Below, one piece after another: positions 11,435-57,978 of a stretch of 60,929 bases of DNA (position 1 is its first letter; every line of letters starts with the position of its first letter). The DNA lies in the NCBI GenBank assembly GCA_018821785.1, contig JAHJLI010000100.1, forward strand, positions 1 through 60,929, in the 5' to 3' direction. This stretch comes from Pseudomonadota bacterium. GTDB taxonomy: Bacteria > Desulfobacterota > Desulfobulbia > Desulfobulbales > Desulfocapsaceae. Below the pieces are notes generated by a model that was not told the DNA's origin, did no database searches, and worked only from the letters and a program-made list of their open reading frames with translations. A program made the position numbers and the translations under genes.

Positions 11435-12661
11435 TCAAAACAGTTTCGCTACCCTGATCAAGAGTTTCTTAAACAGGTTCAGGTCGGCCATTTTCTCATG
11501 GACCGACATATTAAGACCGAGATTGTCGCAGCATTTCATGCAGCCCTGATCCCTGGTCATCATATCATTACCCATGGATTTCAAGTAGACATCGTTTACG
11601 TCAAAATCTATGGTGTGGTTTCTGAATTCCTGTTGTTTCTCACCAAACCAGATTTCAGGAAAACCGGACTGAAGAATATTGCCCACGGGGATTTTAAAGG
11701 ATTTCAAACAGGAATTAACCTCTCCCGTCGCCAATATTCTTGCAAAAGACCAGCCGGCGTAACACGAGGGCATGGCGCTGAGAAGCTCACCATCGTAGTT
11801 GGCCTCATCGGCTGTGCTGCTGCTGATTCTTTGCTTAAAAACGGCGAGATTGGCAAACACTACTTCGTGGTTGTATTGCTCCTGAAATTCCTCCTTCTTC
11901 ATCGGCAGCAGTTCGAGCTGCCCGGAGAGTTCTTTTCTCTGTTCAATGTTCAGGCTAAGACTGTCGGTCTTGCCGGGCATTGTGTCAACCGGCACATAGC
12001 TTATATCGTTCATCCGGTGCTTGTGGGCATACTCGAGCATATCTGTCACTTCCTGATAGCTTCGCGAGGTGATGACGTTGTACATCCCCAGGGCCGGTTT
12101 TATCGTCCTTTTTTCAGCCTTTTTCTCATTTATAAAATCTATAATCTCCGTCATTTTTATGAAGGTTTCTTCATTTTTGTTCGGGTGAAGGTCGGAATAG
12201 ACTTCAGGAGAGGCGGCCCAGAGACTGAGATTCAGATGGTCAACTTCAATTTCCACAAGCTGTTCGGCGATCTCCCGGGTAACAAGAGTGAAGTTGGTAC
12301 TCATATCGAGCCGCATTCCCTTGGCCTTAATATGACGCATTATCTCAAGAATTTCCGGGTGCATGAACGGTTCACCGCCACCGGTGAAATAGAGATCTCG
12401 CACGCCAAGCGAAGCAAGATCATCCACCAGTTTGATGACGACATCAAAGGGCAGATATTTATCTCTGATCTCTTCCTTCATGGCCTTATCGCCCAGCAGG
12501 GGTGAATTACACCAGCAGGCAATACAATCGTTATTGCATTTATTGGTCAGATCTATCTGGACATGCCAGGGACCGGTGTACACTTTTCTATCGAGTATGC
12601 CGCAGGCAATTTTTGCCTGCTGTATCGCGTCCTTAAACAGCAGCTTTTTTGAACCCTTCAT
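11435..12661 (-). CDS. Radical SAM enzyme with SPASM-like C-terminus (paralogue 4)
   Basis: 408 residues with GGGGAGAG before the ATG. The radical SAM cluster motif is CNNDCIACW (CX3CX2C) near residue 42, in the context QIDLTNKCNNDCIACW. A GGGEPFMHPEI SAM-binding motif follows near residue 94-104. The C-terminal third carries CYAGWSFARILATGEV, then SCLK and a final GCMKCCDN, a SPASM-like set of auxiliary-cluster cysteines. It is closely related to the proteins at 23035, 24173 and to the second half of 13685-16429. SPASM enzymes modify peptides, proteins or small molecules by radical chemistry. No RiPP precursor is visible, so the substrate is unknown. Confidence 0.9.
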   Translation of the reverse strand: MKGSKKLLFKDAIQQAKIACGILDRKVYTGPWHVQIDLTNKCNNDCIACWCNSPLLGDKAMKEEIRDKYLPFDVVIKLVDDLASLGVRDLYFTGGGEPFMHPEILEIMRHIKAKGMRLDMSTNFTLVTREIAEQLVEIEVDHLNLSLWAASPEVYSDLHPNKNEETFIKMTEIIDFINEKKAEKRTIKPALGMYNVITSRSYQEVTDMLEYAHKHRMNDISYVPVDTMPGKTDSLSLNIEQRKELSGQLELLPMKKEEFQEQYNHEVVFANLAVFKQRISSSTADEANYDGELLSAMPSCYAGWSFARILATGEVNSCLKSFKIPVGNILQSGFPEIWFGEKQQEFRNHTIDFDVNDVYLKSMGNDMMTRDQGCMKCCDNLGLNMSVHEKMADLNLFKKLLIRVAKLF

Positions 12662-12674
12662 CTCTCCCCTTAAC

Positions 12675-13688
12675 CTATTGACTGAGTGCCGCAGGCATCT
12701 CCTCGCTCATGTTTTTTTCTCTCGTTGTAGCGCTGGCTGGCAATCCGGCACCGGCAGGTCTGATTCCGAGAAGACCCGGTATCTCCGCTGCCAGGGCCCG
12801 GGCAATTATTTTGCTTCCCTCCCAGTTGTAGTGCACGAAGTCCTCTTCAGGTTCAAGAAACAAGTCCCTTTTCCCAGAAAATTCCTTTATCGGATCCAAA
12901 AGGGGAAGATTGCCCTTCCGGGCAATATCCCGGACAATGTCGTTGTAGCTTTCATGCAGCCGCAATAAGCCTTCCGGCAGCACATAAAAAGGCGCCGTCA
13001 TCAACAGGAGCCGGATGTTATTCTGCCGGCAAATGTCGGCAAAAGATTGTAGGTTCAGGCGGTAATCATCCAGCCCCACCCGCAAGGTTTTCCCTTCTGC
13101 CTTCCGGTAATGTACCTGCCCCTTTTTCAGGATCATCGAATAGACCAGCCGGACACTTCTTAAAAAATCAAGCCGTGCGAGAAAACTGAGCCCACCGGAT
13201 TTTTGCAGCTTATCCGGCAAACCATTATTGCTCTGCCAGTGATCATTCCAACCAAAACAAAGGACGACCAGGTCCGGCCTGTAGGCGAGCAATTCTTGTG
13301 TGAAATATTTTAAGCCCTGAAAGGTGGTGTAGCCCGGCACTCCGCCGTTGAACACCTCAATCCCTGCTCCCGGAAACTTCTCCGTCAGGTACTCGGCCAG
13401 CAGATTCGGATATCCCGCTCCCTGATACATAACAGAGACGGAATCCGTTAAGCACATTATTTTTTTAGCACCCGGAGTAAATTCTGGCCGCACATCTTTC
13501 AGTCGCCAGAAGAGCTGTTCATCATATTGCCCCAGCAACTCCCCGCTGACGTTGAGACGTATTATGTCGAACGGCGAATCCGGGTCAATCCGCAATGCCA
13601 TGAGAATGAGCTCAATCAGACCAACTGACAGCACCACCATGCAGGTTATGATAAACCCCTGTTTTAAAACTCTGGAAATCCACTTCAT
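12675..13688 (-). CDS. SGNH/GDSL-type hydrolase with N-terminal membrane anchor
   Basis: The start is placed at ATG 13688 because it makes an ATGA overlap with the stop of the preceding gene; a longer reading adds six residues. It has one N-terminal membrane helix (GFIITCMVVLSVGLIELILMAL), so the enzyme probably faces the periplasm. Catalytic blocks of the SGNH fold are visible: CLTDSVS with the nucleophile Ser, a Gly in the second block (NGGVPGYT), GWNDHW with the Asn, and DFVHYNWEG giving the D-x-x-H pair. Members act as esterases, acyl- or deacetylases on glycans and lipids. The substrate is probably an ester on the product made by the neighbouring radical SAM genes (inference). Confidence 0.85.
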   Translation of the reverse strand: MKWISRVLKQGFIITCMVVLSVGLIELILMALRIDPDSPFDIIRLNVSGELLGQYDEQLFWRLKDVRPEFTPGAKKIMCLTDSVSVMYQGAGYPNLLAEYLTEKFPGAGIEVFNGGVPGYTTFQGLKYFTQELLAYRPDLVVLCFGWNDHWQSNNGLPDKLQKSGGLSFLARLDFLRSVRLVYSMILKKGQVHYRKAEGKTLRVGLDDYRLNLQSFADICRQNNIRLLLMTAPFYVLPEGLLRLHESYNDIVRDIARKGNLPLLDPIKEFSGKRDLFLEPEEDFVHYNWEGSKIIARALAAEIPGLLGIRPAGAGLPASATTREKNMSEEMPAALSQ

Positions 13689-16429
13689 TTTTTCAAAACA
13701 CGCCACTGTGAGAGCTTAAAGGATACCCAACTGAACAGCCTGGTTGAAAACAGAAACTTGTCATGCATAACGGTATTATGCATGACATTGTCACAATTTA
13801 CACAGCCCGGCACCCCCGAATTATCATCGCTCATTACCGAAAAATAGGCTGCCGACTTGTCCATAAATCTGCCATTATTCCGGAACTGGCAATAGGCTGG
13901 ACTGTTCCAGATTCGTTTGAAATCATCTTTGTGGAGGTTGCCCATGCCAAGCCGATGTCCCTTGCAGCAGGGTACCACCCGGCCATCCGCCATAATCCTT
14001 GTATAAAGCCAACCGATGTAGCAGGGAATGGCATTCAAGGCCTTGTGGTCGTAGACCCCCTTTTCAACATCTGATTGCATAAGTTTGTCACAGAATTCAT
14101 GGAAATTTGTGACGCGTATCCTGCGTCCTGTGGCAGACTCGCTATACTCGTTGTACTGGTCTACGTCTCTTCTGATTCGCGCACAGCTCTTCTTGAGGAG
14201 CCCATGCTGCTCCTCGGTGAGCAACAGACTTTCCGTTTTGCCGGGGACGGTATCCACCAAGGTGAAGTGGACCTCGTCAGCTCCAATGTCAAGGGCGAGT
14301 CGCAACATTTCCTCCATTTCGTGATAATTACAATTCATAAGGACATTGTGCACAAAGATACGCGGCGGTCCGTTTTTCCTCCTTTTGACAATTGCCTTGA
14401 GGAGATCAACGATTTTCTGAAAGGTCTTTTCACTCTGATTGGGATGGGTGAACACATAGGTCTCAGGCGTTGCCGCCCACAGGCTTACGGTGAGAAGATT
14501 AATTTCTGCAAGCACCAAAGTCTCAATGAATTTCTCCGTCAAAAGGGTGCCGTTGGTGTTGATATCAATCTCGACAAAGCGATTCCTGCTGCGAATGTAT
14601 CGCAGAATATCAATAAACCTCGGATGCATAGCCGGCTCACCCCCACCACTCAACTTCAGTGACTGCATGCCGCCCAGGTCCATCAAATCATCTATCAGCC
14701 CAGTAACCATTTCATAGGAAAGGGTTTCGGATAAAGAGGAAACGCCATCGTCGCTGCGAACTAAAGGAGAGCGATCCCAGCAACCTATGCAATTCAAATT
14801 ACAGCGATTGGTCAGATCAAGGTGGACAACTTCCGGCCCTGATAAGGCCCTGCGGCCATCTTCAACACCCTGGAGTGCCAGTATATCACTCTCTTCAATT
14901 TCGCAGGCGGGGACCACACTCATCACCAGGCTCCGGATGTGCCTGGCAGTGAAGGTAAGGCCGCGGGGATGCCAGGGCTCATTGGCAAACTGCTGGGGGT
15001 CAAAGAATCGCATCCGCCAGGCCTCAAGCCGCGACACCTCCCAGGGTTGTCCCAGCAGGGTATTGCCACATTCCTTGCCCGCGTGTTTGGCCTGTCGAAC
15101 CAGCTCTTTAATGCGACGTTTTCTAAGGACGAAGGTGTTACCCGTATCGCTGTGCCATTCATTCACCGCTATCGGATCTTCCAACCGGATACCCTTTTCT
15201 TCGGCCATATGCGCCAGGGTTGTCCCAGGTCTCGGAGCATAGGGAATCACCGACAGTACCTGGGAGATGTTTGCAAGATTTTTCTCTAAAAACTGGGAAG
15301 TTTCAGAAAAATCCTTAAAGCTTTCATCGGGGAAGCCAACCAAAAAGCGAACCACCGTTCTGATCCCGGCTTGACGGGCCAAAAGCAGGTTGAGTTCAAT
15401 TGTTGCAGCTTTCGCCCCGGAAAAATAATCGTCAAGAATCCGATCCGATCCGGATATCGCACAAAAACCGAGGGTATGACACCCTGCCGCCCGCATCCTC
15501 ACAAACAATTCGGCGGGCACAACCATCCATGGTACCAGCTCTGCGGCCCAGCGTATATCCGGAAACCTCTTTACAATCTCATCACAAATTTCTTCAAGCT
15601 GCCCATGATTGTTGACAGGACTGGCATGGAAATAGAAATTTTTGACGTTCAGCCGATCAGTGTAATACTCCAGTTCGGCCAGAATACTCTGTAGGGGTTT
15701 TTCCCAATAGCTTGGGAACGCTCTCTTTTCAGGACAATAGAGGCCGCCATTCGGACATCCCGTTGCCAAATGCATCGCCAGAGAGTTTCGATAGCTGTCG
15801 AGTTGCACACCCTCATAGAGGGGAAAGTCATTTTCCGGGGAAGAGCTCTGCCCCATTGGCGAGGCCTCGATATCCTTCTTCTCGGTTCTGCCGTCCCTGT
15901 TCCCTTTTCCCGAACTGGTTAAAAATGACAGTAGACTCAATTCGGTGGGCGCCGAAAGAAAGTGACTGATGCCTTTTCCCGATTCCTGCTCAAGGGAGTG
16001 TCTCTGTTCCTCCGTATGGGTGCTGGGACCACCGGCAAGTACCATGAGACTTTCTGTAATTCTTGTGATTTCGGCAATAAGCCTGCACGCGAATATCTCG
16101 TTGGGATAGGTGAAATCGATATATATTGCCCGAGGAGTTCTCTTTTTTATCTGGGCAGCAAGAAAGGTGAGATGACGGTTGAGAATCGGCAGAGGCCCAC
16201 CCTGTCGCGTTTTTTCATGCCAATGGTAGTTGTTTATTTCATGCCAGAACATCCGCTGCTCCGGTTTTGCACGGCGAAACAGCGCCAGATTCACGTCGTA
16301 GGTTTCGACCTCAAACCCTTTTTCTTTCAGGACTGATTGGAGATGGGCACTGTCTGCCGGTGGATAATGGACCGCCCTCGGCGGACAGGATAGGATTAAC
16401 AGCTCTGGGGAAGACGTGGATTGCTTCAT
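13685..16429 (-). CDS. Double radical SAM protein: degenerate B12-type half fused to SPASM-type half
   Basis: 914 residues. Residues ~8-165 resemble a B12-binding-like Rossmann domain (LLILSCPPRAVHYPPADSAHL, then LAGGPSTHTEEQ). Residues ~215-440 are a radical SAM barrel related to the genes at 21545 and 43868, but the cluster motif reads C225-PNG-G229-LY-C232: the middle cysteine is glycine (codon GGC). The second half (~520-914) begins VEDGRRALSGPEVVHLDLTNRC and has an intact C543/C547/C550 motif, a GGGEPAMHP motif, and SPASM-like cysteines in CYIGWLYTRI, PCCKG and GCVNCDN. The first half is therefore probably a non-catalytic or recognition module and the second half the active enzyme (inference). 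It is coupled by ATGA overlap to the SGNH gene. Confidence 0.88.
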   Translation of the reverse strand: MKQSTSSPELLILSCPPRAVHYPPADSAHLQSVLKEKGFEVETYDVNLALFRRAKPEQRMFWHEINNYHWHEKTRQGGPLPILNRHLTFLAAQIKKRTPRAIYIDFTYPNEIFACRLIAEITRITESLMVLAGGPSTHTEEQRHSLEQESGKGISHFLSAPTELSLLSFLTSSGKGNRDGRTEKKDIEASPMGQSSSPENDFPLYEGVQLDSYRNSLAMHLATGCPNGGLYCPEKRAFPSYWEKPLQSILAELEYYTDRLNVKNFYFHASPVNNHGQLEEICDEIVKRFPDIRWAAELVPWMVVPAELFVRMRAAGCHTLGFCAISGSDRILDDYFSGAKAATIELNLLLARQAGIRTVVRFLVGFPDESFKDFSETSQFLEKNLANISQVLSVIPYAPRPGTTLAHMAEEKGIRLEDPIAVNEWHSDTGNTFVLRKRRIKELVRQAKHAGKECGNTLLGQPWEVSRLEAWRMRFFDPQQFANEPWHPRGLTFTARHIRSLVMSVVPACEIEESDILALQGVEDGRRALSGPEVVHLDLTNRCNLNCIGCWDRSPLVRSDDGVSSLSETLSYEMVTGLIDDLMDLGGMQSLKLSGGGEPAMHPRFIDILRYIRSRNRFVEIDINTNGTLLTEKFIETLVLAEINLLTVSLWAATPETYVFTHPNQSEKTFQKIVDLLKAIVKRRKNGPPRIFVHNVLMNCNYHEMEEMLRLALDIGADEVHFTLVDTVPGKTESLLLTEEQHGLLKKSCARIRRDVDQYNEYSESATGRRIRVTNFHEFCDKLMQSDVEKGVYDHKALNAIPCYIGWLYTRIMADGRVVPCCKGHRLGMGNLHKDDFKRIWNSPAYCQFRNNGRFMDKSAAYFSVMSDDNSGVPGCVNCDNVMHNTVMHDKFLFSTRLFSWVSFKLSQWRVLKK

Positions 16430-16484
16430 GCCAGCCTATGCTTTCCGGCATATTTCTGCCGTTTGAAAGAAAATTTGCACTACC

Positions 16485-17360
16485 TCAGTTCTTTTCGGCA
16501 TAAAAAATTCCATAATTGCCGAGGTTGAACTTCAGGACAAGGTACTGAAAAAACGCTCCGAGAAGGTTATCATTCTGAATCTTAGACCTCTTCCCCATAA
16601 CTTCAGCAAGTTGGGCCAGAGGCCAGGCAATGATAGCAAGGCCAAAAAGCCGCCGGGAAGAAGGCGTTACATTTTCAGTAATATCTTCGTAGTCAATATT
16701 CACAAAACCGGTCTCATGGAGATGATCCCTGAATACTGATAACGATTCCAAAGCATCAACAGCCCATTTTTTTACCCAGAGATCAAAAATCCTTCTTTCA
16801 AAAGGAGTATAGCTAGCCTTGATCTCAAAGCCATCTGCAACCAGCAGCCGCCCACCCTTTTTTAAAATGCGGAACGCCTCGCGGATAAAGGTTTTTTTGC
16901 ACGGGGCGTAGCATGAACTTTCAAGAGCCCAGACCACATCGAACGACTCGTCAGCAAAACCGGTACTGGAAAAATCCATAACCTGAAAAGCCGTTAACCC
17001 GTGCACCTCCCTCTCCTCTGCCAATCGCCTCGCCGACCGGGCCTGCTTATGGCTCAAGGTAATTCCAACGACCTTGCAGCCGCTACTCCCAGCAAGGTAA
17101 ATGGAGCTGCCACCGACCCCACAACCAGCATCTAAAACCAGGTCCGCTGCGGTTATTTTACCCTTGATGCGCATTACCTCATTTTGTCGCACCAGGGCCT
17201 CTGCGAGGGTTTTGGTCGTTTCATCCCAGTGGCCGATGTGCATTGCCAGACATTCGTCGAGATGCCAGTTTGTCCGGTAATCGATTTCACAGGAATCGTA
17301 ATAATCAACAATCCTCTTTCTTCTCGCGTCTCCCTGATCTTCTGGTCTTTGGAGTGTCAT
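16485..17360 (-). CDS. SAM-dependent class I methyltransferase
   Basis: 291 residues with AAGGTAAGAG before the ATG. The SAM-binding motif I is VLDAGCGVGGSSIYLA near residue 75-90. The ITLSHKQARSARRLA segment and FDVVWALESSCYAPCKKTFIREAFRILKKGG region are typical of small-molecule methyltransferases of the tocopherol/sterol/glycine-sarcosine type. A hydrophobic stretch near 235-250 (RLFGLAIIAWPLAQLAEV) suggests membrane association or a lipid-like substrate. It lies between the double radical SAM gene and the FAD oxidase. Methylation of an isoprenoid or lipid intermediate is plausible but inferred. Confidence 0.88.
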   Translation of the reverse strand: MTLQRPEDQGDARRKRIVDYYDSCEIDYRTNWHLDECLAMHIGHWDETTKTLAEALVRQNEVMRIKGKITAADLVLDAGCGVGGSSIYLAGSSGCKVVGITLSHKQARSARRLAEEREVHGLTAFQVMDFSSTGFADESFDVVWALESSCYAPCKKTFIREAFRILKKGGRLLVADGFEIKASYTPFERRIFDLWVKKWAVDALESLSVFRDHLHETGFVNIDYEDITENVTPSSRRLFGLAIIAWPLAQLAEVMGKRSKIQNDNLLGAFFQYLVLKFNLGNYGIFYAEKN

Positions 17361-17406
17361 CTCTTACCTTGGAAATTTTTTCTGCAAGTTTTTTACCCTT
17401 CGGGGG

Positions 17407-18885
17407 CTAGACGTTTTCGACAAACACTCCAGGATTAAGGATATTTTGAGGATCATACTGTTTTTTTAACGCTTTCAGTTTCAGATAGTCGGCACCATAA
17501 AACTGCTTTTTCTGTTCTTCACTCAGTCCATGCCAGCCATAGAGATAGGGTCTGCCCTTAAGGTCCAGACAGTTGCGCATATATTGCTTGTGGTGGTCCT
17601 CGGCAGTTTGGAGTTGCTTTTTGTCTCCATACTTCACCATATAGTAAAATCCCACACTGTAGACCATTTTACTGGTGCTGCCATAGGTTGGTGAAAAAGG
17701 AATTCCCCCGGTCTCTGCAGTATCGCAGGCGACAATATAGAGAGCCGGCAAAATATTCTGAAAATGGCTGATCTTAGTTGTCGTTATCGCCCGATTGAGA
17801 AATTCCTCCAATTCTTCAATGCCGAAGATATAATCCTCCCAGATATGATGGGAAATACCATATCTCTCTACCCAGTTCTCTCTCACCTTATGCAGATAGA
17901 GGTGATAGTCCTTAATAACCGCGTTCTTGTAAAATGCGATCTGAGACTGAACTTTCTTTTTCAGAGCCTCCTGCTCAGTTTTGTTCTCTTCGGAAAAGGA
18001 TTTGCCAATTTCAATGATAAAACTGCCATTCAACCAGTAGGAAGAGAAATGGTCTATCTCCCGGATAAAATCGGGATGGAGAATGGCCTTAACCCCCTTG
18101 ATAAAATCTTTGACGCTGGTGCAGAGAACATAAAAAACCGAGGTGAACTGCCGGTATTGTATCGGTTTGATTTTGACCTTACTGATAAAACCCAGCTGGC
18201 CCAGACCGCACAAGGAGTATCTGAAAAGATCACTGTTCTCCTGAGGTGAACAGCGCATTCGACTCCCATCCGGCAGGAGCAGTTCCAGTTCGCTGATATT
18301 GTCAACCTGAGCACCATACTGGAAAGATCGCAGGCCATAGCCACCAACGGAGAGCGTTCCACCAAGGGTCAAATTAAGATAATCAGTGAGGACAGGGCTG
18401 GTGAGGCCCTGCTCGTTCAATTTTCTCTCAAGTGCAAACCATTGTGTTGATGAGTGGACGGATACCTGGTCACCTTCCATAGCGATATCCGGGTTCTCTC
18501 GGTTATTGACGAGCAGGATACCGCCATCGGAGAGAGACTGGCCATAGCAGGTATGACCGGCGCCGCGGAGTGACACGGGTACCTGGTATTTCTCGGCCAC
18601 CTGGAAAATGATGCGGATGTCCTCATCATTTTCCGGCACTACAATGAGCCGAGGTTCCTTGTGAATGGTCCGGCCAAAGTCTGTCTTGAATTCCTCAACA
18701 AGCAGGTGGTCCTTCACTAATCTGCCTTTTATTCGCTGTTTGAGGATATCACCCACCATTTCGGGGGTAGCCGAATCCTTGAATTTGAATAAGGCACCCA
18801 TATCTCCTACGGCCAAACTGCCACCTGCAAAGGAGAGATATCTGAGAAAGTCTCTTCGTGAAGTAACTGGAGGTTGCCTGCTCAT
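17407..18885 (-). CDS. Tat-exported FAD-linked oxidase (BBE/cytokinin-dehydrogenase type)
   Basis: 492 residues; CGAGGATTATA precedes the ATG. The N-terminus has a twin-arginine motif, SRRDFLRYLSFAGG, so the folded flavoprotein is probably exported. The PCMH-type FAD domain follows (about 60-240), with PVSLRGAGHTCYGQS where the His is in the position used for covalent FAD in this family, and LTLGGTLSVGGYG. The C-terminus has a BBE-like ending (KKQYDPQNILNPGVFV). Family members oxidise alcohols, amines or sugars. Export separates it from the cytoplasmic radical SAM steps, suggesting a late oxidation of the product (inference). Confidence 0.87.
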   Translation of the reverse strand: MSRQPPVTSRRDFLRYLSFAGGSLAVGDMGALFKFKDSATPEMVGDILKQRIKGRLVKDHLLVEEFKTDFGRTIHKEPRLIVVPENDEDIRIIFQVAEKYQVPVSLRGAGHTCYGQSLSDGGILLVNNRENPDIAMEGDQVSVHSSTQWFALERKLNEQGLTSPVLTDYLNLTLGGTLSVGGYGLRSFQYGAQVDNISELELLLPDGSRMRCSPQENSDLFRYSLCGLGQLGFISKVKIKPIQYRQFTSVFYVLCTSVKDFIKGVKAILHPDFIREIDHFSSYWLNGSFIIEIGKSFSEENKTEQEALKKKVQSQIAFYKNAVIKDYHLYLHKVRENWVERYGISHHIWEDYIFGIEELEEFLNRAITTTKISHFQNILPALYIVACDTAETGGIPFSPTYGSTSKMVYSVGFYYMVKYGDKKQLQTAEDHHKQYMRNCLDLKGRPYLYGWHGLSEEQKKQFYGADYLKLKALKKQYDPQNILNPGVFVENV

Positions 18886-18902
18886 TATAATCCTCGTTCC
18901 GA

Positions 18903-20081
18903 TTAACGGGTAATGCCGTGGTGAATATGAAGTGCCTTATGGTAGGCCTCGACCAGGGTTTCAGCACTTTTGCTCCAGGAGTAGTATTGCTCCGCCCGCT
19001 CCCTGGCTTTTTTGCCGAGCCGATTCCGTTCCTCGTCATCGTCGAGCAGGGCGTCTAGAGCGGCAGCAATTTCCAGAAAGCTGTCAGGTGCAACGAGTTT
19101 ACCGCAATCTCCCAGCATTTCCGACAAATCTCCTACCCTGCTGGCGACAATTGCCTTACCCGAGGCCATATATTCTTTTACTTTGAGGGGACTCTTGCAA
19201 CGAACCTGTTTATTGTCTTCAAAGCAGGCCACGGCCACATCCGCCGCTGCGATGAACTGTGGCACCATCTCGTGTGGAACCTTATCGGTAAAGAAGAGCC
19301 CAGCAGTTACTCCAAGACTTCCTGCAAGCTCCTGAGCATCGGCGAGTTTATCTCCTCCCCCGACGATGACAAAATCGACATCATCCCGTTTGCCAAGAAT
19401 TATCTGGGCTGCCCTGATAAAAAGATGTACATAATTTGCCCCGCTTATCTGTCCTTGATAGATGACCAGCTTTTTCCGCCAGCCATATCGTTGTCTGACC
19501 TCCCTGCCTGATACGGACGGTTGGAAGACCTGAAGATCTGCGCCAACCGGAATGGAAAAAGTCCGTTCTTTTGGAAACCTCAGCTTTTCACAGAGCTCTC
19601 TCAGTCCCGAACTGGCGACGCTGACGGTATCGGCCAGCCTGAGAAGATGCTTTTCCATCTGTTGAAAATAGATCCAGGAGGCAATCGGATTATTGTTGTC
19701 CTGCTCGTAAATTGCCTGTTCCCAATCATCCCAGTCGTAGTGAAGCGGTCGCCCCTGGTAGAAGGCGGCCGCAACAGCTGGCAGGGCCGCATAGTTGGAA
19801 CATTTTTGAAAATGAACGACATCCGCCCACCAGGCGACTTTCTCCAGCTTACCGGCATTGCGGAAAATATGGAAAGGATGCCTTTGAAAAGGGATGGTCT
19901 CAAAGGGAAAGCTACGATCGGTGACCTCCGCTCTTTTCCCATCCGGAGAACGATATTCATGGTAGACCACCTTCACTTCATGCCCTGCCCGCACCAGTTC
20001 CTGTGCCAGGTAGGTTATCCTTACCGTCCAGGGCTCCAGGTCGTGATAGAGATCATGTGGATGCACCATAACAATTTTCAT
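18903..20081 (-). CDS. GT4-type glycosyltransferase
   Basis: The start is set at ATG 20081, which gives MKIVMVHPHDLYHDLEPW and an ATGA overlap with the preceding gene's stop; an upstream GTG-type start would add 12 residues. The protein has the GT-B layout of family GT4: an N-terminal Rossmann half with YDWDDWEQ, and a C-terminal half with KLVIYQGQISGANYVH, VGGGDKL and an E-x7-E-type region (SPLKVKEYMASGKAIVASRVGDLSEM). It transfers a sugar from a nucleotide donor in the cytoplasm. It is adjacent to a second glycosyltransferase, so the product of this cluster probably carries at least two sugars. Confidence 0.9.
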   Translation of the reverse strand: MKIVMVHPHDLYHDLEPWTVRITYLAQELVRAGHEVKVVYHEYRSPDGKRAEVTDRSFPFETIPFQRHPFHIFRNAGKLEKVAWWADVVHFQKCSNYAALPAVAAAFYQGRPLHYDWDDWEQAIYEQDNNNPIASWIYFQQMEKHLLRLADTVSVASSGLRELCEKLRFPKERTFSIPVGADLQVFQPSVSGREVRQRYGWRKKLVIYQGQISGANYVHLFIRAAQIILGKRDDVDFVIVGGGDKLADAQELAGSLGVTAGLFFTDKVPHEMVPQFIAAADVAVACFEDNKQVRCKSPLKVKEYMASGKAIVASRVGDLSEMLGDCGKLVAPDSFLEIAAALDALLDDDEERNRLGKKARERAEQYYSWSKSAETLVEAYHKALHIHHGITR

Positions 20082-21544
20082 AGCCGTCCCAACCTCTCTC
20101 GCAGCACGTGGAGACAATGACCGGCAAGCGTCAAAAGTGTCAGGTAACCCAGAAGGGGAATCCCAAACATCGTCCTGCGCAGACTCTGCACCAGGCGCTG
20201 CGGATTATAGAGCAGCGCCAAGCCCCGCGCCTTTCTCTGCACCCTCCACATCAACTCCTTTTCAACTTCGATGCAATGGACCCTTTTCTTCTGGTCCTCC
20301 ATATACCTGTCTCGCTGCTGCAGCAGATGCTGCAACTTCTCCGACAATTGCTGATAGTAGAAATACCTTGTACTTAAGGAAGACGATGCCCTGTTGAACC
20401 GGGGCATTCGACAAAACCGATCAAGCGGTTCGATGGTTTTATCCCACATAAATCGATCGGCAAATAATTTTCGGGCATTATCCCGGTAGACACTCAGTTC
20501 TTCCGCACCTATTCCGGTAATTTGCTCGATTACCTGCTGCAACTGGGCATAATTATTTTCTTCAATAACCCAACCTGCCTGGTACTTCCCGATGAGCTGG
20601 GCCAATTCACCATAGCCTGAGATGATCACCGGGAGCCCCGCCCAGAGATAGGCAACACCCCTTGAAGGGACTGCCAGCTCCCTCTCCGGATTACGCTGCC
20701 ATAGATCGACAGCAACAGAGGCCCGGCAAAGTGCTTTGGTCAGTGTGGTAAAATCGACGGGATCATGTTTGACGAGACATTTACCGCCTACAGCCTGGGC
20801 CTGCCCCTTGGCATCCGTTGAAGAATCTTCATTGTCAAAAATATCCACATAGGGTGAGGCCGATGAATAGACATGGAGTGTGCCCTTCTCACTTTTCTCA
20901 AGTTCATCGCAGACCGTTCGAATATAGTCACCGCCATCCAACCACGGCCAATCATACCCGGCGAGGATAAATCGTAGAGGCAGAAAAGAGTCGTGCCGGG
21001 GTACATCCGGCGAGAGGGAAAAGGGCACGACGCCGATGGCAATGTTCTCGGGCTTGACACCGGCAAGAAGACACCAGGAGGTGAGATAGTTCTTCTGGCC
21101 CAGGGAGCCGGCGATGAGGAAATCTGCCTTCGCCACCGCCTCAATCTTCGCCAGTGAGTCCTCAAGCACCTTCCCTCTTTTGCGGTAATAATTTTCCAGA
21201 ACCAGAGAGCCATTCATATCAATTGCCACGGGAACACTGCACTCAAGGGCCTCGACCGCAAGGCCCCAGTTGCAAAACAGCACAATATCCGCGGCGGTTT
21301 TTTTCACGACGTTCTCAAGGTCCTTGACGTTGTGAGCAAACTCTCGCCTTGGATCATCGGCGCCGTCGTCCGGGTTGCAACACTTCAAGGGAATGGAGTA
21401 ATACACCCTATGGCCGCATCCCTCAAGTGCTTGGCCGAGGGCGTAGGCCCGTATCGCTCCGCCGGTTGCCGGTTTGCCTTCCTCAGGTAATGGCTGACTG
21501 GTAACGATTAAAATTTTCTTTGCTGATCCGTGCATGGAAGTCAA
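20078..21544 (-). CDS. GT4-like glycosyltransferase
   Basis: 488 residues from a TTG; an ATG nine bases further in (21535) is the alternative start. The N-terminus (KKILIVTSQPLPEEGKPATGG) and middle part resemble GT-B glycosyltransferases, with PSRGVAYLWAGLPVIISGYGELAQLI corresponding to the donor-binding region of GT4 enzymes. A C-terminal extension of ~110 residues has a coiled-coil-like stretch (YYQQLSEKLQHLLQQRDRYMEDQKK) and a hydrophobic tail (PLLGYLTLLTLAGHCLHVL) that may attach it to the membrane. It lies two bases from the preceding radical SAM gene and overlaps the next gene by ATGA, showing tight coupling. Donor and acceptor are unknown. Confidence 0.82.
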   Translation of the reverse strand: MTSMHGSAKKILIVTSQPLPEEGKPATGGAIRAYALGQALEGCGHRVYYSIPLKCCNPDDGADDPRREFAHNVKDLENVVKKTAADIVLFCNWGLAVEALECSVPVAIDMNGSLVLENYYRKRGKVLEDSLAKIEAVAKADFLIAGSLGQKNYLTSWCLLAGVKPENIAIGVVPFSLSPDVPRHDSFLPLRFILAGYDWPWLDGGDYIRTVCDELEKSEKGTLHVYSSASPYVDIFDNEDSSTDAKGQAQAVGGKCLVKHDPVDFTTLTKALCRASVAVDLWQRNPERELAVPSRGVAYLWAGLPVIISGYGELAQLIGKYQAGWVIEENNYAQLQQVIEQITGIGAEELSVYRDNARKLFADRFMWDKTIEPLDRFCRMPRFNRASSSLSTRYFYYQQLSEKLQHLLQQRDRYMEDQKKRVHCIEVEKELMWRVQRKARGLALLYNPQRLVQSLRRTMFGIPLLGYLTLLTLAGHCLHVLRERLGRL

Positions 21545-23038
21545 TTACCCCTTTATGCCAATCCCCGTCTTAAGCTTTTGCCAAAGCTGCGAAAGTATCC
21601 GCTGGTCCCTGCCACTCTCTTTTGTCCTCCGATTTTCATTCAAAAAAGTCCTGCCTATTTCAAACCCTTCCTCTCCCGCCACGGTGAGTATGGTCTGCAA
21701 TCTTTGCTGGCGAATTTCGTAGGTGTTGCTCTCATCGCGACTCCGCCATTTGTCATGGGGTTCAACGTCCGGCAGCACAAGGTCGAAGTCTTGTATCCTC
21801 GCAGCAAGGGGTGTGTCGGTGACAATCTGCAAGGTTGACACACTGTCGATCCGATCAATAAAACGGGCATGACGACGCAGAAAATCCACCGTCATCTGCA
21901 GATCCTCCTCCGTTTCACCGGGAAAACCGACAAGGATGTTCACTGCGACCTTAATCCCTGCCTTGTGGGTGCGACGGATGACTTCGCCTGCATCTCGGCT
22001 ATTGCTGAGTTTCCCCATCGAAGTGAGGACCCTGTCGGATCCCGATTCGATGCCGTAGACGAGGGTGTGGCACCCGGCCCGACGCATTTTGGACAACAGC
22101 TGTTCCGTCAGACTCTTCAGGGCAATTGCCTCGCCCGACCAGGTAATATCGAGAGAATCTGCGATAATAGCCTCACAGATAGCCTCAAGATGTTTGGGGT
22201 TGCCGTTGATTGCCGAGTCATACACCACAAAATTGCGTGCAGCGTACCGTGAGACATAGAAGTGGAGTTCATCAACAATGGCTGCCACCGATCGACAGCG
22301 ATATCTTCCCCACAGGGCCTTCTCCTTACAATAGAGGCACCTGCCGATACACCCCCTGCTCCACATGACGGCCAAACTCTCGCCACTGTAGAGCAGCATA
22401 TCAAACTCTTCAAAGGAGGGCGAAACAATCGACTCAAGATCTACCTGGGGAATGGTATTCCTTTGCTGCGACTCGTCACCTGCGGGTATTACCTGGGAGA
22501 GGCTTGTCACCTCGCCACCACGTTTTTTCCACAGCAAAAATTCCGCCAGAACTCTCTCGCCTTCACCGACAAAAAAGTAATCTATGGCGCCTGCAGACTC
22601 TCGGCTCAAAAATTCCCTCTGCCCCTGGGCCTCACACCCCGGACCACCGGCAAGCACAAGCAGTTGCGGGATTCTTTCCTTGAGCAGTTTAATAAAACGG
22701 CAGGTGAAAAACTCATTGGGGTCAATTACGGTAAAGCCTACCACCGAGACCCCGGAGGTAACTATTTTTTGAGCGAGGCTACCCACGGCTGCCTGCCACT
22801 GGAAAAACAGATTATCCACCTGCTCTGCCTTGCGCCAAAAATTATCATTTTTCAGCAACCAGAGTCCCTTTTCGTCCAGAGTGGCCTGCGTGTGCAACTG
22901 GGCGTTGATATCAAGAACGTCGACGAACAGGCCCTTTTGTTTGAGGTTGGCAGCCAGATAAGCGGGACCAAGCGGCGGATTAACCACACCCCAGGGCGGA
23001 CAAATTAATAACAGGATGTCCGGTTGGTTAAAGATCAT
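21545..23038 (-). CDS. B12-binding-type radical SAM enzyme
   Basis: 497 residues. The N-terminal ~190 residues form a B12-binding-like Rossmann domain starting PDILLLICPPWGVVNPP, with LAGGPGCEAQGQREFLSRE and IDYFFVGEGERVL. I do not see the D-x-H-x-x-G base-off motif. The radical SAM motif is RGCIGRCLYCKEKALWG (CX3CX2C), followed by YGIESGSDRVL and NILVGFPGETEEDL, all typical of the BchE-like group. Such enzymes carry out methylations, cyclisations and C-C rearrangements. It shares a common ancestor with 43868-45337 and with the degraded first half of 13685-16429. Its ATG overlaps the preceding gene's stop. Confidence 0.9.
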   Translation of the reverse strand: MIFNQPDILLLICPPWGVVNPPLGPAYLAANLKQKGLFVDVLDINAQLHTQATLDEKGLWLLKNDNFWRKAEQVDNLFFQWQAAVGSLAQKIVTSGVSVVGFTVIDPNEFFTCRFIKLLKERIPQLLVLAGGPGCEAQGQREFLSRESAGAIDYFFVGEGERVLAEFLLWKKRGGEVTSLSQVIPAGDESQQRNTIPQVDLESIVSPSFEEFDMLLYSGESLAVMWSRGCIGRCLYCKEKALWGRYRCRSVAAIVDELHFYVSRYAARNFVVYDSAINGNPKHLEAICEAIIADSLDITWSGEAIALKSLTEQLLSKMRRAGCHTLVYGIESGSDRVLTSMGKLSNSRDAGEVIRRTHKAGIKVAVNILVGFPGETEEDLQMTVDFLRRHARFIDRIDSVSTLQIVTDTPLAARIQDFDLVLPDVEPHDKWRSRDESNTYEIRQQRLQTILTVAGEEGFEIGRTFLNENRRTKESGRDQRILSQLWQKLKTGIGIKG

Positions 23039-24195
23039 GGCGTGAATAAACGCTGTTGCAGTTCCTGGTTATGCATATGGTTGTCACAGGTCGTTCCGCA
23101 ACCGATATTTTTAAACCAGGAGTTCCGTTTATTAAGATTTTTGGCCATGAAACGGAAGCCATTGTATTTTTCAGAATTCCAGATTTCAGAAAAGGAGGCC
23201 TCGTGCAAATTTCCCATGGGCAAATGGACCCCACGGCAACAGGGCGCAACCTCGCCACTGGCCAATATCCGGCAAAAAATCCAGCCAATATAGCAAGGAA
23301 GGGCATCGACCTCATCAAAATCGTAGTTCCCCTCGCCCGCTCCCTCCGCGGCAATTCTCTGACGAAAGCCTGAAAAGTTATCAAGAAATATTTTTTTATT
23401 GTGCGCCATTCGAGCGTTTCGTCGCTCTATGTTTTCACAGGCCATCCGCACCTGGAATCGTTCCTCTTCCCCTAGTAACAGTGAGTCGGTACTGCCAGGA
23501 ACGGGATCGACCACGGCAAAATAGACAGACTCAGCCCTGACCCGCAGGGCATAATCGTACATCTGTTCAACGTGCGCACAATTGACGCGGGAGATAACAT
23601 TCAAGATGTTCACCCGCGGGGTGGTCTGCCTGGAGGTTTTCAAGAACGGCAGACGGATCCGGCGGGATTTTTTTGCAGCAATAGCCTGCAATACCTCGGT
23701 AATTGCCAAGAACGTCTTTGCCGTTTTATTGGGGTGGGTCAAGACATAGTCAGTTGCGTTGGCTGCCCACAGACTTACCGATATTTCGTCCAACCCCGAC
23801 TGGAGTAATTCCTCCACGTCGTCCTTGCCGACCATGTTCAGACTGGTGGTGACGGCACAGAATATATTTTTCTTTTTCACCGCTCGGATAAGGGTATAAA
23901 TGTCCGGATGGAGAAAGGGTTCTCCGCCACCGGTAAAACGTATTATCGAGGTCCCCATCCGGGCGAGATCGTCAATCAGTTGCAGTACCAGCTCGGTTTC
24001 CAACTGCTGTTTGTGCCAGTCCTTGTCGGGAGAATTATCACCAAGAAGGGGCGATCTTGTCCAGCAGGCGATGCAGTTATTATTGCACCTGTTGGTCAAG
24101 TCGATGACGACGTGCTCGGGGCCGACAAAGGCCTTGCGGCCATCGACAACACCCTTGCGAATCAGCTCGTCTCTATCCATTCTTTCGGAGCCCAT
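23035..24195 (-). CDS. Radical SAM enzyme with SPASM-like C-terminus (paralogue 2)
   Basis: 386 residues; an alternative ATG lies at 24180. The radical SAM motif is IDLTNRCNNNCIACW near residue 31-45, with TGGGEPFLHPDI after it. The C-terminal region contains CYIGWIFCRILASGEVAPCCRG and GCGTTCDNHMHN, the same cysteine layout as the other SPASM-like paralogues here. The residues NCIACWTRSPLLGD are nearly the same in the neighbouring protein, indicating recent tandem duplication. It overlaps the genes on both sides. The reaction is unknown; divergence between copies suggests sequential modification of one scaffold (inference). Confidence 0.9.
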   Translation of the reverse strand: MGSERMDRDELIRKGVVDGRKAFVGPEHVVIDLTNRCNNNCIACWTRSPLLGDNSPDKDWHKQQLETELVLQLIDDLARMGTSIIRFTGGGEPFLHPDIYTLIRAVKKKNIFCAVTTSLNMVGKDDVEELLQSGLDEISVSLWAANATDYVLTHPNKTAKTFLAITEVLQAIAAKKSRRIRLPFLKTSRQTTPRVNILNVISRVNCAHVEQMYDYALRVRAESVYFAVVDPVPGSTDSLLLGEEERFQVRMACENIERRNARMAHNKKIFLDNFSGFRQRIAAEGAGEGNYDFDEVDALPCYIGWIFCRILASGEVAPCCRGVHLPMGNLHEASFSEIWNSEKYNGFRFMAKNLNKRNSWFKNIGCGTTCDNHMHNQELQQRLFTP

Positions 24196-25402
24196 TTTGA
24201 GTAAGGCGATAATAATAGCCAGCCCCCTTGAGAAGAAGTTTCTCGGAGCAGCTCAGGTTCAGAAGCCTCCGCCACAACCTCCGGTTCCGCTCAATATCGT
24301 CGCATCCTCTGTGACAGCCGATCTGGGACGACTCAGCATTGCCGATACCCGCAAAAAAGGGATCACCGGCGTTGCCTTCCCTAGTCTTTCTTCGAAACTC
24401 TCGTTGTTTTGCGGAATTCCAGATTTCCCGAAAAGAAGACTCATGGATATTCCCGACCGGGATACGGTGTGCCTTCAGACAGGCATTGATATTGCCATCG
24501 GCTAGTACTCGGGAAAAGTTCCAGCCGATAAAGCAGGGGATGTCGGTGAGCATTACGGTATCATACTCGCCACTGTCTGCACCTGTCCCAGAGATTCGGC
24601 GCATAAATTCCTTATAATATACTTCCGCTCTGAAATCTCCCTGTTGGCTGAACAGTTCCAGTTGCGCGCATGCCTCCAACACTTCACTTCGCTGCTCCGC
24701 AGTCAGCAGTAATTCATCAGTGAAACCAGGAATAACATCGGCAACGGTATATTCGACAGCGTCAACCCCCACCTCTTCTGCCAATTTTGCCATCGCCACA
24801 ATTTCCCGATAATTGCGGTTCATAATGACATTGTAGAGCTTTATGTGCGGGCCACCATTTTCTTTCAATTCAACGAGATATTTCAGGGTATCGATAATTT
24901 CCAGGAAGGTGTCTCTGTTCTGATTGGAGTGACAGTCCACATAGGTCTGTGGTGTGGCAGCCCAGAGACTTACAATCAAATTATCAACACCCATCTCCTT
25001 CAGGTCTCGGGCTTTTCCCTTATCAACCAGGGTGAAATTGGTGTTCACATGGCAGCGAAAACCAAGCGCTTTGATGTGACTGACGATATCCATGATTCCC
25101 GGATGCATGAAGGGCTCACCGCCACCGGCAAGATAGATATCCGTCGTGCCCATTTTCGCACAGTCATCAAGGGTCTGCTTCACCAGAGCAAAGGGAAGTT
25201 GCTGACTGCCTACCTCCCCTGAAATGACACGATTACCGAGCAGGGGGGAGCGACACCAGCAGGCTATACAGTTGTTGTTGCAGGAATTGGTTACATCGAT
25301 CTGCAGGAGCTCCGGACCGCAGAAGGCGAACTCTCCATCCATCACACCGGCAAGATCTCTGTTGTGACGGAGAAAACCTGCAGGTTTTTTACCATTGGTC
25401 AT
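24173..25402 (-). CDS. Radical SAM enzyme with SPASM-like C-terminus (paralogue 1)
   Basis: 409 residues. It has QIDVTNSCNNNCIACWCRSPLLGN with the CX3CX2C motif, AGGGEPFMHPGI, then the family-specific CFIGWNFSRVLADGNINACLKAH and GCHRGCDDIERN in the C-terminal third. It is the first of the four SPASM-like units after the prenyl synthase. The gene overlaps the next by 23 bases. SPASM members bind extra Fe-S clusters at the C-terminal cysteines. The set lacks recognisable peptide-precursor genes, so a small-molecule or lipid substrate is more likely than a RiPP, but this is inference. Confidence 0.9.
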   Translation of the reverse strand: MTNGKKPAGFLRHNRDLAGVMDGEFAFCGPELLQIDVTNSCNNNCIACWCRSPLLGNRVISGEVGSQQLPFALVKQTLDDCAKMGTTDIYLAGGGEPFMHPGIMDIVSHIKALGFRCHVNTNFTLVDKGKARDLKEMGVDNLIVSLWAATPQTYVDCHSNQNRDTFLEIIDTLKYLVELKENGGPHIKLYNVIMNRNYREIVAMAKLAEEVGVDAVEYTVADVIPGFTDELLLTAEQRSEVLEACAQLELFSQQGDFRAEVYYKEFMRRISGTGADSGEYDTVMLTDIPCFIGWNFSRVLADGNINACLKAHRIPVGNIHESSFREIWNSAKQREFRRKTREGNAGDPFFAGIGNAESSQIGCHRGCDDIERNRRLWRRLLNLSCSEKLLLKGAGYYYRLTQNGLRKNG

Positions 25403-25568
25403 AACAACAGCACTGTTGGGGGCTTCAAATTTTTCATCTCAAAGCAAATACGCAATGGGATGATCATAGCAGGAAACATACTCCGGCTGAGGCGATTGCC
25501 GGGCGAAATGACGGTTTTGCAGGATAAATATGGATATATAAATCGCATCTCCAGAGCCGAGACCACCC

Positions 25569-26474
25569 TCAGGTGACAAACAAAATCCCATCAGGTGTGA
25601 CTGCCTCACGGAAGTAGCCAAGATTTCCTAAATAGCTCATCATTTCCATGATTACCTTGTCAATGTTCAACTTTCTGGCAAGATGCATAAAAGTCAGATA
25701 GTTTTCATTCCATACATCTATAATATCCCGAACAGGCAAGATATGAAAAATATTCTGATACTGGCCATCCTTGTTTTTGTCCATAAAATCATCATAGATC
25801 TGAAACAACAGGCCAAACAGGCCGCCGCAGGCCATGGCCTCAGGCAGATGCTTGTGTGCGACAAAGGGTAAACCGAAGGACAACTGAAAAAGAGCTCCTG
25901 TTTTTAGATCGGCCATCTCCAGATAGCGTTGCAGAGTAGGTTCTTTAGGCATGACTTTCTGCTCGATGACCAAGCCGGTGACCAGTTTTTTGATGGCCCC
26001 AACCATCAATTTTATGACTTCATTGCTATGATTGAAATCAAGGGCGAAGTCAATAACCGAACACATCATAAAATCACCGATCAACACAGCGTGAGCATTG
26101 GTGAAGGTGTCGTTCAGGGTTGGGCAACCTCTCCGGTACTGATCTGCATCAATAACATCATCATGAATGAGGGAAGAATAATGAAGGAGCTCAATGGTTA
26201 TCCCATATTTAAAACAGGTTTCGCGATCGAAGCCATTTGCATCGGCAATCAGGACAGGAAGAAAGCTTCTGGTTCTTTTCGCATCTGAGCTAAGGAGAAT
26301 GTCATGAGCAGTCTTCAGATACTCCTGCAACGCGGGATGATTTTTCGAATCATCGGCAAAGGCCCTGAGTTTATCATTCACCTGTTGCTTTACGATCTCT
26401 ATCCTGCACCCTCCTGTTGCGCTGACCACGGGTGCCTTTTGACTGCGGATGCTGCCCTCACATTCTTTTAACAT
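25569..26474 (-). CDS. Polyprenyl (isoprenyl) diphosphate synthase
   Basis: About 300 residues. ATG 26474 is preferred to GTG 26480 because GAAGGTGG precedes it at proper spacing. The first aspartate-rich motif is HDDVIDAD near 106-113 with the following RRG (FARM), and the second is YDDFMDKNKD near 229-238 (SARM). KTGALFQLSFGLP is the usual intermediate segment. These condense isopentenyl diphosphate with an allylic diphosphate. Residues before the first motif are LLHYSSLI, so chain-length prediction is not secure. The location just upstream of the radical SAM genes suggests it supplies an isoprenoid chain to the pathway, or an undecaprenyl-type carrier (inference). Confidence 0.93.
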   Translation of the reverse strand: MLKECEGSIRSQKAPVVSATGGCRIEIVKQQVNDKLRAFADDSKNHPALQEYLKTAHDILLSSDAKRTRSFLPVLIADANGFDRETCFKYGITIELLHYSSLIHDDVIDADQYRRGCPTLNDTFTNAHAVLIGDFMMCSVIDFALDFNHSNEVIKLMVGAIKKLVTGLVIEQKVMPKEPTLQRYLEMADLKTGALFQLSFGLPFVAHKHLPEAMACGGLFGLLFQIYDDFMDKNKDGQYQNIFHILPVRDIIDVWNENYLTFMHLARKLNIDKVIMEMMSYLGNLGYFREAVTPDGILFVT

Positions 26475-26818
26475 ATCCACCTTCTCTCATTACCTGCCTA
26501 AAATTTATTTTTCTGGTGGCATCGAAAAAACCTCCAGCTGGCTATCAGAAAACTCACAAAACAGCATACTCCAATAATACCAAAGGGTTTAAGATGATAA
26601 AGGATACCAAGTAAGCCCTTAGGAAACAACTAAAAAAGCCAGCCCTGGAATCGACAGACCGTGCGACTCTCACCAAATATTCTCTTGAAATGGCTGACAA
26701 ACCATGTACAGCAAACCAGACCAAGTCTGGATAGATTGTTTTGCCCTGGTTTTTAAACATGTTTTTAATTTCTTCTTATACCGCAAGGACATAAGTTTCG
26801 TTTGAGCAGACAAGCTGC
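26475..26818. other. Intergenic region between sulfatase and prenyl synthase
   Basis: About 340 bases. The right end contains most of copy 2 of the 53-bp repeat. Near 26613-26640 the words CCCTTAGGAAACAACTA and AAAAAAGCC faintly recall the start of the 105-bp repeat family, but similarity is too low to call. A promoter for the minus-strand biosynthetic unit could lie here; no convincing one was identified. Confidence 0.45.
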
Positions 26819-26829
26819 TCAACTCAGCT
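26777..26829. repeat. 53-bp dispersed repeat, copy 2
   Basis: This is 52/53 identical to 8676-8728, in the same orientation. Its right end overlaps the last codons of the Ser-type sulfatase, and the sulfatase stop TGA (26821-26819) lies within the hairpin arm TTGAGCAG when read on the minus strand. The 8-bp inverted repeat is intact. Confidence 0.85.
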
Positions 26830-28231: not shown

Positions 28232-28248
28232 TACATTATAATCACTTG

Positions 28249-31026: not shown

Positions 31027-31073
31027 ATCTATGCCAACCAAAGACTCATCCGTCAAAAAGAAAGTATCAATAC

Positions 31074-45337: not shown

Positions 45338-45379
45338 CACTCTGACCCCCAATCTATCCCAGCCTGCCAGTAGACTGCC

Positions 45380-50821: not shown

Positions 50822-50829
50822 CCTTCTCG

Positions 50830-57897: not shown

Positions 57898-57978
57898 GCT
57901 GTATCCTCTATAAAAGGGATGTGTTCCCTGTCGGAGCATAACGAGCTGCAGTGCTCAACACACCGCAGTCAGTTGAAT

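Follow-up and report, generated by a model that had tools for sequence, protein, structure and literature searches.

A candidate polysaccharide export locus with four predicted twitch-type radical SAM enzymes, whose relatives include glycosyltransferase fusions

Most of the radical S-adenosylmethionine (SAM) enzymes known to act on sugars belong to antibiotic pathways, in which soluble sugar nucleotides are the substrates of DesII and BlsE. Peptides are frequent substrates of SPASM enzymes, and a full SPASM domain, with two auxiliary clusters, has seven cysteines. Radical SAM proteins of the B12 type are often C-methyltransferases. A twitch domain binds a single auxiliary cluster; in the butirosin enzyme BtrN, which performs a two-electron oxidation of an aminocyclitol, this cluster has four Cys ligands, and direct evidence that electrons pass to it had not been reported (PMC9012708). 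NeoN performs an epimerization on neomycin C (PMC10991966). Here we analyzed one whole contig of 60,929 bases (G000:C139; hereafter the window), in which four paralogous radical SAM genes, designated SPA to SPD, lie within a locus of about 50 kb. The product of this locus is probably a sulfated polysaccharide of the cell surface, similar to an O-antigen or a capsule, with radical-edited sugars and exported by an ATP-binding cassette (ABC) system.

The genes on which this reading is based are as follows (Pfam scan of 40 window proteins; GT, glycosyltransferase):

24173..25402, minus strand: SPA, predicted twitch-type radical SAM enzyme (Pfam Radical_SAM and SPASM, tree, AlphaFold2 model, Foldseek)
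23035..24195, minus strand: SPB, predicted twitch-type radical SAM enzyme, tandem partner of SPA (Pfam Radical_SAM and SPASM)
21545..23038, minus strand: B12a, B12-binding radical SAM protein (PF02310, 35.6 bits; PF04055, 70.1 bits)
20078..21544, minus strand: GTx, probable glycosyltransferase; by eye, its C-terminal stretch is hydrophobic (weak PF00534)
18903..20117, minus strand: GT4 glycosyltransferase (Pfam)
13685..16429, minus strand: fusion of a half resembling B12 radical SAM proteins with SPC, predicted twitch-type radical SAM half (Pfam Radical_SAM and SPASM in the second half)
11435..12661, minus strand: SPD, predicted twitch-type radical SAM enzyme (Pfam Radical_SAM and SPASM)
34106..35602, minus strand: B12b, B12-binding radical SAM protein (PF02310, 44.0 bits)
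35669..36925, minus strand: Wzt, ABC ATPase with a C-terminal Wzt_C domain (PF00005, PF14524)
36946..37758, minus strand: Wzm, ABC-2 type export permease (PF01061)
37766..38605, minus strand: sulfotransferase (PF13469)
43868..45352, minus strand: B12c, radical SAM protein (PF04055) with a B12-binding match just below the cut-off (PF02310, 29.0 against 32.1 bits)
45380..46447, minus strand: NAD-dependent sugar epimerase/dehydratase (PF01370, 141.9 bits)
46472..47536, minus strand: NAD-dependent sugar epimerase/dehydratase (PF01370, 92.4 bits)
55412..57939, minus strand: two overlapping GT2 glycosyltransferases (PF13632, PF00535)

An ABC2 permease next to an ATPase with Wzt_C, the combination by which a Wzm/Wzt ABC-dependent locus is recognized, was found here. 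The reading as a sulfated ABC-exported glycan was reached because Wzm, Wzt with its Wzt_C domain, the sulfotransferase, the epimerases and the GT2 pair share the window. In these genes and its other glycosyltransferases the locus resembles Wzm/Wzt O-antigen and capsule loci. It differs from them in its eight radical-SAM-related domains (four twitch, B12a to B12c, and the degenerate half of the fusion), its prenyl synthase, its Tat-type FAD oxidase and its MacAB-TolC genes.

SPB, SPC and SPD were 41, 37 and 41% identical to SPA, and the radical motif and Pfam matches to Radical_SAM and SPASM were present in all four. This agreed with an earlier note on this DNA, which had described four paralogous SPASM-type units. 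A search of the host genome returned the four paralogues at E values from 6e-97 to 2e-77, and the next match only at 7e-11. The CYIGWxxxRI motif that the note had assigned to all of them was exact in two (23035 and 13685); the other two carried variants, CFIGWNFSRV (24173) and CYAGWSFARI (11435).

For the cysteines, 103 domain rows were aligned; from an initial 118, the 15 that were divergent or on long branches had been excluded beforehand. The three residues of the CxxxCxxC radical cluster (C41, C45 and C48) and the auxiliary C290, C308, C363 and C367 were invariant in 103/103 rows. Past position 290 no further column had Cys in more than 30% of the rows, and the full SPASM set was not found in this alignment. 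Because only four auxiliary cysteines are conserved, we place SPA to SPD in the twitch type rather than in the two-cluster SPASM class named in the earlier note. Judged from these residues, each probably binds a single auxiliary cluster ligated entirely by Cys.

The AlphaFold2 model of SPA had a mean predicted local distance difference test (pLDDT) score of 95.2. Its Foldseek matches in the PDB began with SuiB, DesII, SkfB and anSME, with BlsE at rank 16 and BtrN at rank 23; the template modelling (TM) scores by target length were 0.73 for BlsE and 0.67 for BtrN. PDB sequence matches included MoaA, BtrN, BlsE and DesII. DesII and BlsE were among the best fold matches (query TM 0.61 and 0.60) and among the sequence matches, but were only 12–15% identical. 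BtrN is alike in its radical cluster and single four-Cys auxiliary cluster (for the latter, PMC9012708) and in a sequence match over the C-terminal domain. It is unlike SPA in the 13–14% identity of the fold alignment, in the glycan and export neighborhood found here and in the GT4 fusion of some relatives. The modeling proposed in the earlier note therefore gave a firm fold class for the predicted structure of SPA, but not a substrate, which could not be read from the fold.

Ten proteins of the radical-enzyme run (B12b and B12c being left out) were also scanned against NCBIfam. No model among the best 25 per protein reached its cut-off, in keeping with the earlier note, which did not recognize the pathway from described clusters.

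Relatives were collected by a one-genome-per-species scan with a four-protein alignment. The best 80 of 166 loci were kept, most of them from metagenome-assembled genomes (MAGs). In 8 of the 80 (L029, L048, L049, L066, L073, L076, L080 and L104), GT4 and the SPASM domain formed a single open frame of 818–934 residues, stop to stop. One further such frame, of 816 residues, was seen in L129. These and the fusions below are open frames of MAGs, predicted from sequence, and they occur in several of the bacterial groups.

A quick maximum-likelihood tree was computed from 118 domains; in it SPA belonged to the clade whose SPASM domains are joined to GT4 in other loci. All eight fusions fell in a 13-row subclade containing SPA of the window (support 89, not starred). 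Proteins joined in one chain usually work in sequence on one substrate. Because of the GT4-SPASM fusions elsewhere, we interpreted SPA as probably acting on the sugar handled by GT4.

Other fusions were larger. L104 had a B12 radical SAM protein and a GT2 in one frame; four radical SAM matches lay within 2191 amino acids in L049; and L059 combined a B12-binding, four radical SAM and three SPASM matches in 1930. Open frames with at least two domains of the subfamily, each of at least 150 bits, were found in 18/80 loci.

Taking the largest group that held one window row and no other, the tree separated SPA, SPB, SPC and SPD into groups of 64, 33, 4 and 13 rows, although many forks were weakly supported and the SPC row was on a long branch. 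Recent local duplication of the four paralogues was considered and rejected, since each of the four groups has relatives in other phyla. A tandem of A followed by B, with B beginning at most 310 bases past A, was present in 19 loci including the window and Madre3 (below), and in four further loci the B row lay some kb upstream. The window was the only locus in the tree with all four groups, the relatives being viewed within flanks of at most 10 kb.

The remaining genes of the locus were assigned as follows (FAD, flavin adenine dinucleotide):

25569..26480, minus strand: PPS, divergent trans-prenyl diphosphate synthase (PF00348, 116.9 bits; Foldseek matches to prenyl synthases)
17407..18885, minus strand: FAD-dependent oxidase, cytokinin-dehydrogenase/BBE type (Pfam FAD_binding_4, PDB sequence search)
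16485..17360, minus strand: MT, SAM-dependent non-radical methyltransferase (PF08241, 73.9 bits)
12675..13706, minus strand: SGNH/GDSL hydrolase-like protein with an N-terminal hydrophobic segment seen by eye (PF13472, 64.1 bits)
9995..11407, minus strand: TolC-type outer membrane efflux protein (PF02321)
8754..9968, minus strand: MacA/HlyD-type adaptor (PF16576, PF13437)
7409..8647, minus strand: MacB-type ABC permease (PF12704, PF02687)
6739..7416, minus strand: ABC ATPase of the MacB system (PF00005)
26819..32657, minus strand: block of sulfatase, alpha-L-rhamnosidase (GH78) and sulfatase, also kept in G484 (below)

The radical-enzyme run extended from 26,480 down to 6,739, all on the minus strand and with closely spaced genes. 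Its order was PPS, SPA, SPB, B12a, GTx, GT4, FAD oxidase, MT, the fusion with SPC, SGNH protein, SPD, TolC, MacA, MacB and ATPase. Upstream on the same strand lay B12b, Wzt, Wzm, the sulfotransferase, B12c, the two epimerases and the GT2 pair. The limits of 11435..26474 set in the earlier note were therefore too narrow: TolC and the MacAB genes follow, and the Wzm/Wzt, sulfotransferase, epimerase and two B12 radical SAM genes lie upstream. Its B12-type gene, methyltransferase, FAD oxidase, SGNH protein, prenyl synthase and close spacing were all confirmed. Of its two GT4 enzymes, the one at 18903..20117 held, but GTx scored 22.5 bits against the PF00534 cut-off of 26.4, although a homologue in L049 passed the cut-off of Glyco_trans_1_2.

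Linkage was counted with window proteins only as queries, at E≤1e-10 and 60% coverage; queries from family loci (carbamoyltransferase, PNPT, GT2, amine oxidase, Wzm2 and Wzt2) were not used in these counts. Loci rather than genomes were counted in the 54 longer relatives (at least 11.4 kb), to which a few genomes contributed two, and which included Madre3 and G484. B12b was the most recurrent partner of the subfamily, found at more than 40% identity in 41/54. GT4 was found at this level in 34/54 and at any identity in 36/54; Wzm, at any identity, in 22/54. On the other hand, PPS was found in 2/54 and the FAD oxidase and MacB in 1/54 each. Of the SPA-clade rows that had 6 kb or more of flank on each side (n=30), 26 had a B12 radical SAM gene within 5 kb, 23 had GT4 within 6 kb and 19 had both.

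Two control sets, both picked by hand from search listings, consisted of 20 SPASM-type loci of similar length from the family of the window and 20 radical SAM loci taken from those Omnitrophota genomes (n=12) that carry 12 of the relative loci. (An earlier set of 22 loci was dropped; its mean length was only 3.8 kb.) At the same thresholds both sets gave 0/20 for B12b, GT4, Wzm, Wzt, PPS, FAD oxidase and MacB. At any identity, the Omnitrophota controls gave B12-type matches in up to 5/20 and GT4 in 1/20.

Gene order was compared in two relatives. Contig QZLB01000113.1 (46,143 bases) of Desulfobulbaceae bacterium Madre3 (G068/G485), of the same family as the window, had homologues of at least 40% identity for 24/43 window genes, second matches to paralogues being left out, and kept most of the gene order on one contig. 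Identities were 47% for the sulfotransferase, 52% for Wzm, 66% for Wzt, 71% for B12b, 51% for PPS, 66% for SPA, 58% for SPB, 53% for B12a, 51% for GTx and 68% for GT4. The fusion (32%) directly followed GT4, the FAD oxidase and MT not lying between them, and the contig stopped inside it.

The 94-kb contig of Proteobacteria bacterium Modern_marine_rock_biofilm.mb.12 (G484; L077) held PPS (70%), GTx (61%), GT4 (76%), FAD oxidase (75%), MT (77%) and SPD (80%) in a single run with TolC, MacA, MacB and ATPase (55–81%). Just before the run and in two other blocks were Wzm (75%), Wzt (74%), B12b (80%) and the sulfotransferase (57%). Also outside the run, on the same contig, were the sulfatase/rhamnosidase genes (63–69%), the epimerases (77 and 80%) and the GT2 pair (64 and 67%). 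SPD (79.5% identical) was the only subfamily member in the G484 genome at E≤1e-30.

Among the B12-type proteins, B12a and B12b scored above the PF02310 cut-off and B12c below it, and CxxxCxxC was present in all three. The first half of the fusion is a relative of B12 radical SAM proteins in which the motif reads CPNGGLYC, the second Cys being missing; the Madre3 homologue has CPHQCSFC. This half gave no PF02310 match at 0.001. It may be a pseudo-enzyme half or an assembly error.

From the observed gene content, synteny, open-frame fusions, conserved cysteines, predicted fold and co-occurrence, we infer the following substrate, reactions, order of steps and product. The epimerases would make nucleotide sugars, and GT2, GTx and GT4 would assemble the glycan on a membrane lipid; a dedicated carrier or anchor may come from the extra prenyl synthase. 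The twitch enzymes would act on sugar residues at the transfer stage; most likely SPA and GT4 work on the same sugar, just before or after its transfer to a lipid-linked acceptor. Hydrogen abstraction at a sugar carbon by a 5'-deoxyadenosyl radical would be followed either by oxidation of the residue, with an electron passing to the four-Cys auxiliary cluster as proposed for BtrN, or by its epimerization. We favor dehydrogenation by analogy with BtrN, epimerization being the other option.

The B12 radical SAM enzymes would most likely add C-methyl groups, and the non-radical methyltransferase and sulfotransferase would decorate the chain further. Wzt_C would recognize the finished chain for export by Wzm/Wzt. 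The Tat-type FAD oxidase, the SGNH protein and the sulfatases would remodel it in the periplasm, as family membership and signal-like sequences seen by eye suggest for the first two, and MacAB-TolC would move some product, of whatever kind, outwards.

A broader proposal is that the relatives represent a widespread, undescribed radical glycan assembly line, in which glycosyltransferases, twitch enzymes and B12 radical SAM enzymes form physical machines, at times in a single chain (GT4-SPASM, B12 radical SAM with GT2, or a B12-type radical SAM protein with three twitch domains in 1930 amino acids), that edit sugar carbons with each residue added. We put this forward tentatively, as rather less than an even chance. 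If true, lineages with scarcely a cultured model would regularly use radical chemistry to build their surface glycans, and the fusion of GT4 with a SPASM domain would offer a ready pair for expression and assay. It might also help to explain the high numbers of radical SAM genes in Omnitrophota genomes. Provisionally, the novelty lies in the set of radical SAM enzymes within a locus for polysaccharide export: no such arrangement with glycan assembly was found in the titles and abstract openings of the open PMC literature, subscription journals and preprints lying mostly outside it.

Several observations weigh against the reading as an ABC-exported glycan. No initiating sugar-phosphate transferase was found among the 40 window proteins, the rest of the genome not being searched (a PNPT-type query from L075 matched in 10/54 longer loci). 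At any identity GT4 was missing from 18/54 longer loci and Wzm from 32/54; the window's Wzt, used as a query, was found in 3/54, and the ABC ATPase scanned from the Omnitrophota locus L070 had no Wzt_C match at 0.001. In the SPD clade, GT4 lay within 6 kb in 1/13 and Wzm within 12 kb in 0/13, several contigs being short. The neighborhood comparison across the phylum that the earlier note had proposed found members, but gave weak linkage: in nine more distant member loci, B12b reached about 50% identity in L168 only, all other matches being at about 36% or less.

The first Foldseek match of SPA was the peptide enzyme SuiB, and the highest query TM score among the best 50 rows was 0.61; the fold therefore leaves the substrate unsettled. 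A Wzm/Wzt pathway offers no obvious role for PPS, the FAD oxidase or MacAB-TolC. The MacAB-TolC genes do resemble described exporters, with TolC, adaptor, MacB permease and ATPase in order, but MacB was linked in only one of the 80 relative loci (L077). On the G484 contig no orthologue of SPA, SPB, B12a, B12c, the fusion, the SGNH protein or the phosphodiesterase was found. The shared genes there fall into three blocks about 10–20 kb apart, and therefore need not form one pathway.

The product could instead be a secreted isoprenoid or glycolipid, the substrate suggested in the earlier note. PPS would make the chain, the radical SAM and B12 enzymes would functionalize it, the glycosyltransferases would glycosylate it, the FAD oxidase would act in the periplasm and MacAB-TolC would export it, Wzm/Wzt and the sulfatases being a neighboring unit. 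In the window, Madre3 and G484 alike, the radical genes do have an extra, divergent PPS next to them, and the G484 run from PPS to the ATPase is contiguous and about 35 kb from Wzm/Wzt. Two other synthases of the host genome scored higher for the family. The cluster enzyme keeps both DDxxD motifs, and the GKxxGxD after the second is absent from all three cluster copies and present in the host's other two. Its model was of moderate confidence (pLDDT 70.8, from 3 sequences), with Foldseek matches to prenyl synthases. The product of PPS may be a specialized lipid that serves as carrier or anchor, or PPS may carry out no chain elongation at all. However, at E≤1e-45 the cluster type was found in only one of 395 genomes of the phylum, that of the window, and no prenyltransferase or cyclase was seen among the 40 proteins scanned. 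Besides the window, PPS was linked in 2/80 relative loci; as part of a general core it was thus rejected, and the linkage on which the earlier note had staked its reading was nearly, though not wholly, absent. With B12b, GT4 and Wzm recurring, and because PPS was linked in 2/80 loci and GT4 fused to SPA relatives in 8/80, an isoprenoid as the main substrate was unsupported. A glycolipid stands in the sense of a lipid-linked glycan. We consider this alternative unlikely, though worth keeping in view, and the earlier interpretation as a whole partly supported.

Three other explanations were given far less weight. Sulfated algal polysaccharide might be degraded, the radical enzymes then maturing the sulfatases or being present incidentally; the window and G484 do each have the sulfatase/rhamnosidase block inside the locus, but Wzm/Wzt, the sulfotransferase and the glycosyltransferases are biosynthetic, and the relative loci recurrently hold GT4 and Wzm; degradation is very unlikely. 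The enzymes might modify a ribosomally synthesized and post-translationally modified peptide (RiPP) with an unrecognized precursor, as their SPASM relationship and the SuiB match would suggest. Small unannotated open reading frames were present in both gaps in which such frames were listed, but none was an obvious precursor there, as the earlier note had also stated. No RiPP model reached its NCBIfam cut-off among the best 25 per protein, the auxiliary domain is a four-Cys twitch rather than a two-cluster SPASM domain, and the recurrent neighbors are B12b, GT4 and Wzm; a RiPP is highly improbable. Maturation of a metalloenzyme or cofactor is the most improbable of all. TIGR04317, the maturase of a tungsten oxidoreductase, was the top NCBIfam match for all four paralogues, but at 94.7–116 bits it was far below the cut-off of 380, and no tungsten oxidoreductase was seen among the window proteins scanned.

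The subfamily was present in Omnitrophota, the phylum of the window, Myxococcota, Wallbacteria and archaea. By title, 48 of the best 80 of 166 loci were from Omnitrophota (one titled Saelkia) and 13 were archaeal; 10/13 rows of the SPD group were archaeal by title. A member at E≤1e-60 was found in 9/395 sampled genomes of the window's phylum, that of the window included, and only the latter had four. In the family, 2/93 genomes (the window's own and G068) had a close member. L088 and L098 lie in CP010425 (Archaeon GW2011_AR15), an archaeal record titled as a chromosome; the archaeal presence is therefore not confined to small MAG contigs. A plasmid search gave 38 records, every one below 60% identity.

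The FAD oxidase has an N-terminal SRRDFLR motif resembling a twin-arginine translocation (Tat) signal, seen by eye. Its PDB sequence matches were cytokinin dehydrogenases and, more weakly, oligosaccharide oxidases; at E≤1e-40 the type was found in the window's own genome only, among 395 of the phylum. The GH78 rhamnosidase and sulfatases lie within the biosynthetic locus and are 63–69% identical in G484; this block may remodel the cell's own sulfated glycan. A MORN-repeat protein (38807-39535) lies near the sulfotransferase, as it does in Madre3 and G484. A phosphodiesterase-like protein, an SBF-family transporter and an NMT1-like ABC transporter set occupy 47656-53156; their order is kept in Madre3, and they are absent from the G484 contig.

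Twelve Omnitrophota genomes of 1.2–3.1 Mb (G493-G504; loci L033, L035, L056, L058, L059, L060, L063, L065, L071, L072, L075 and L102) each had 33–76 radical SAM matches at E≤1e-8. One of these matches (G503:C13:38578-39063) lay inside an open frame of 13,857 residues, possibly a giant protein.

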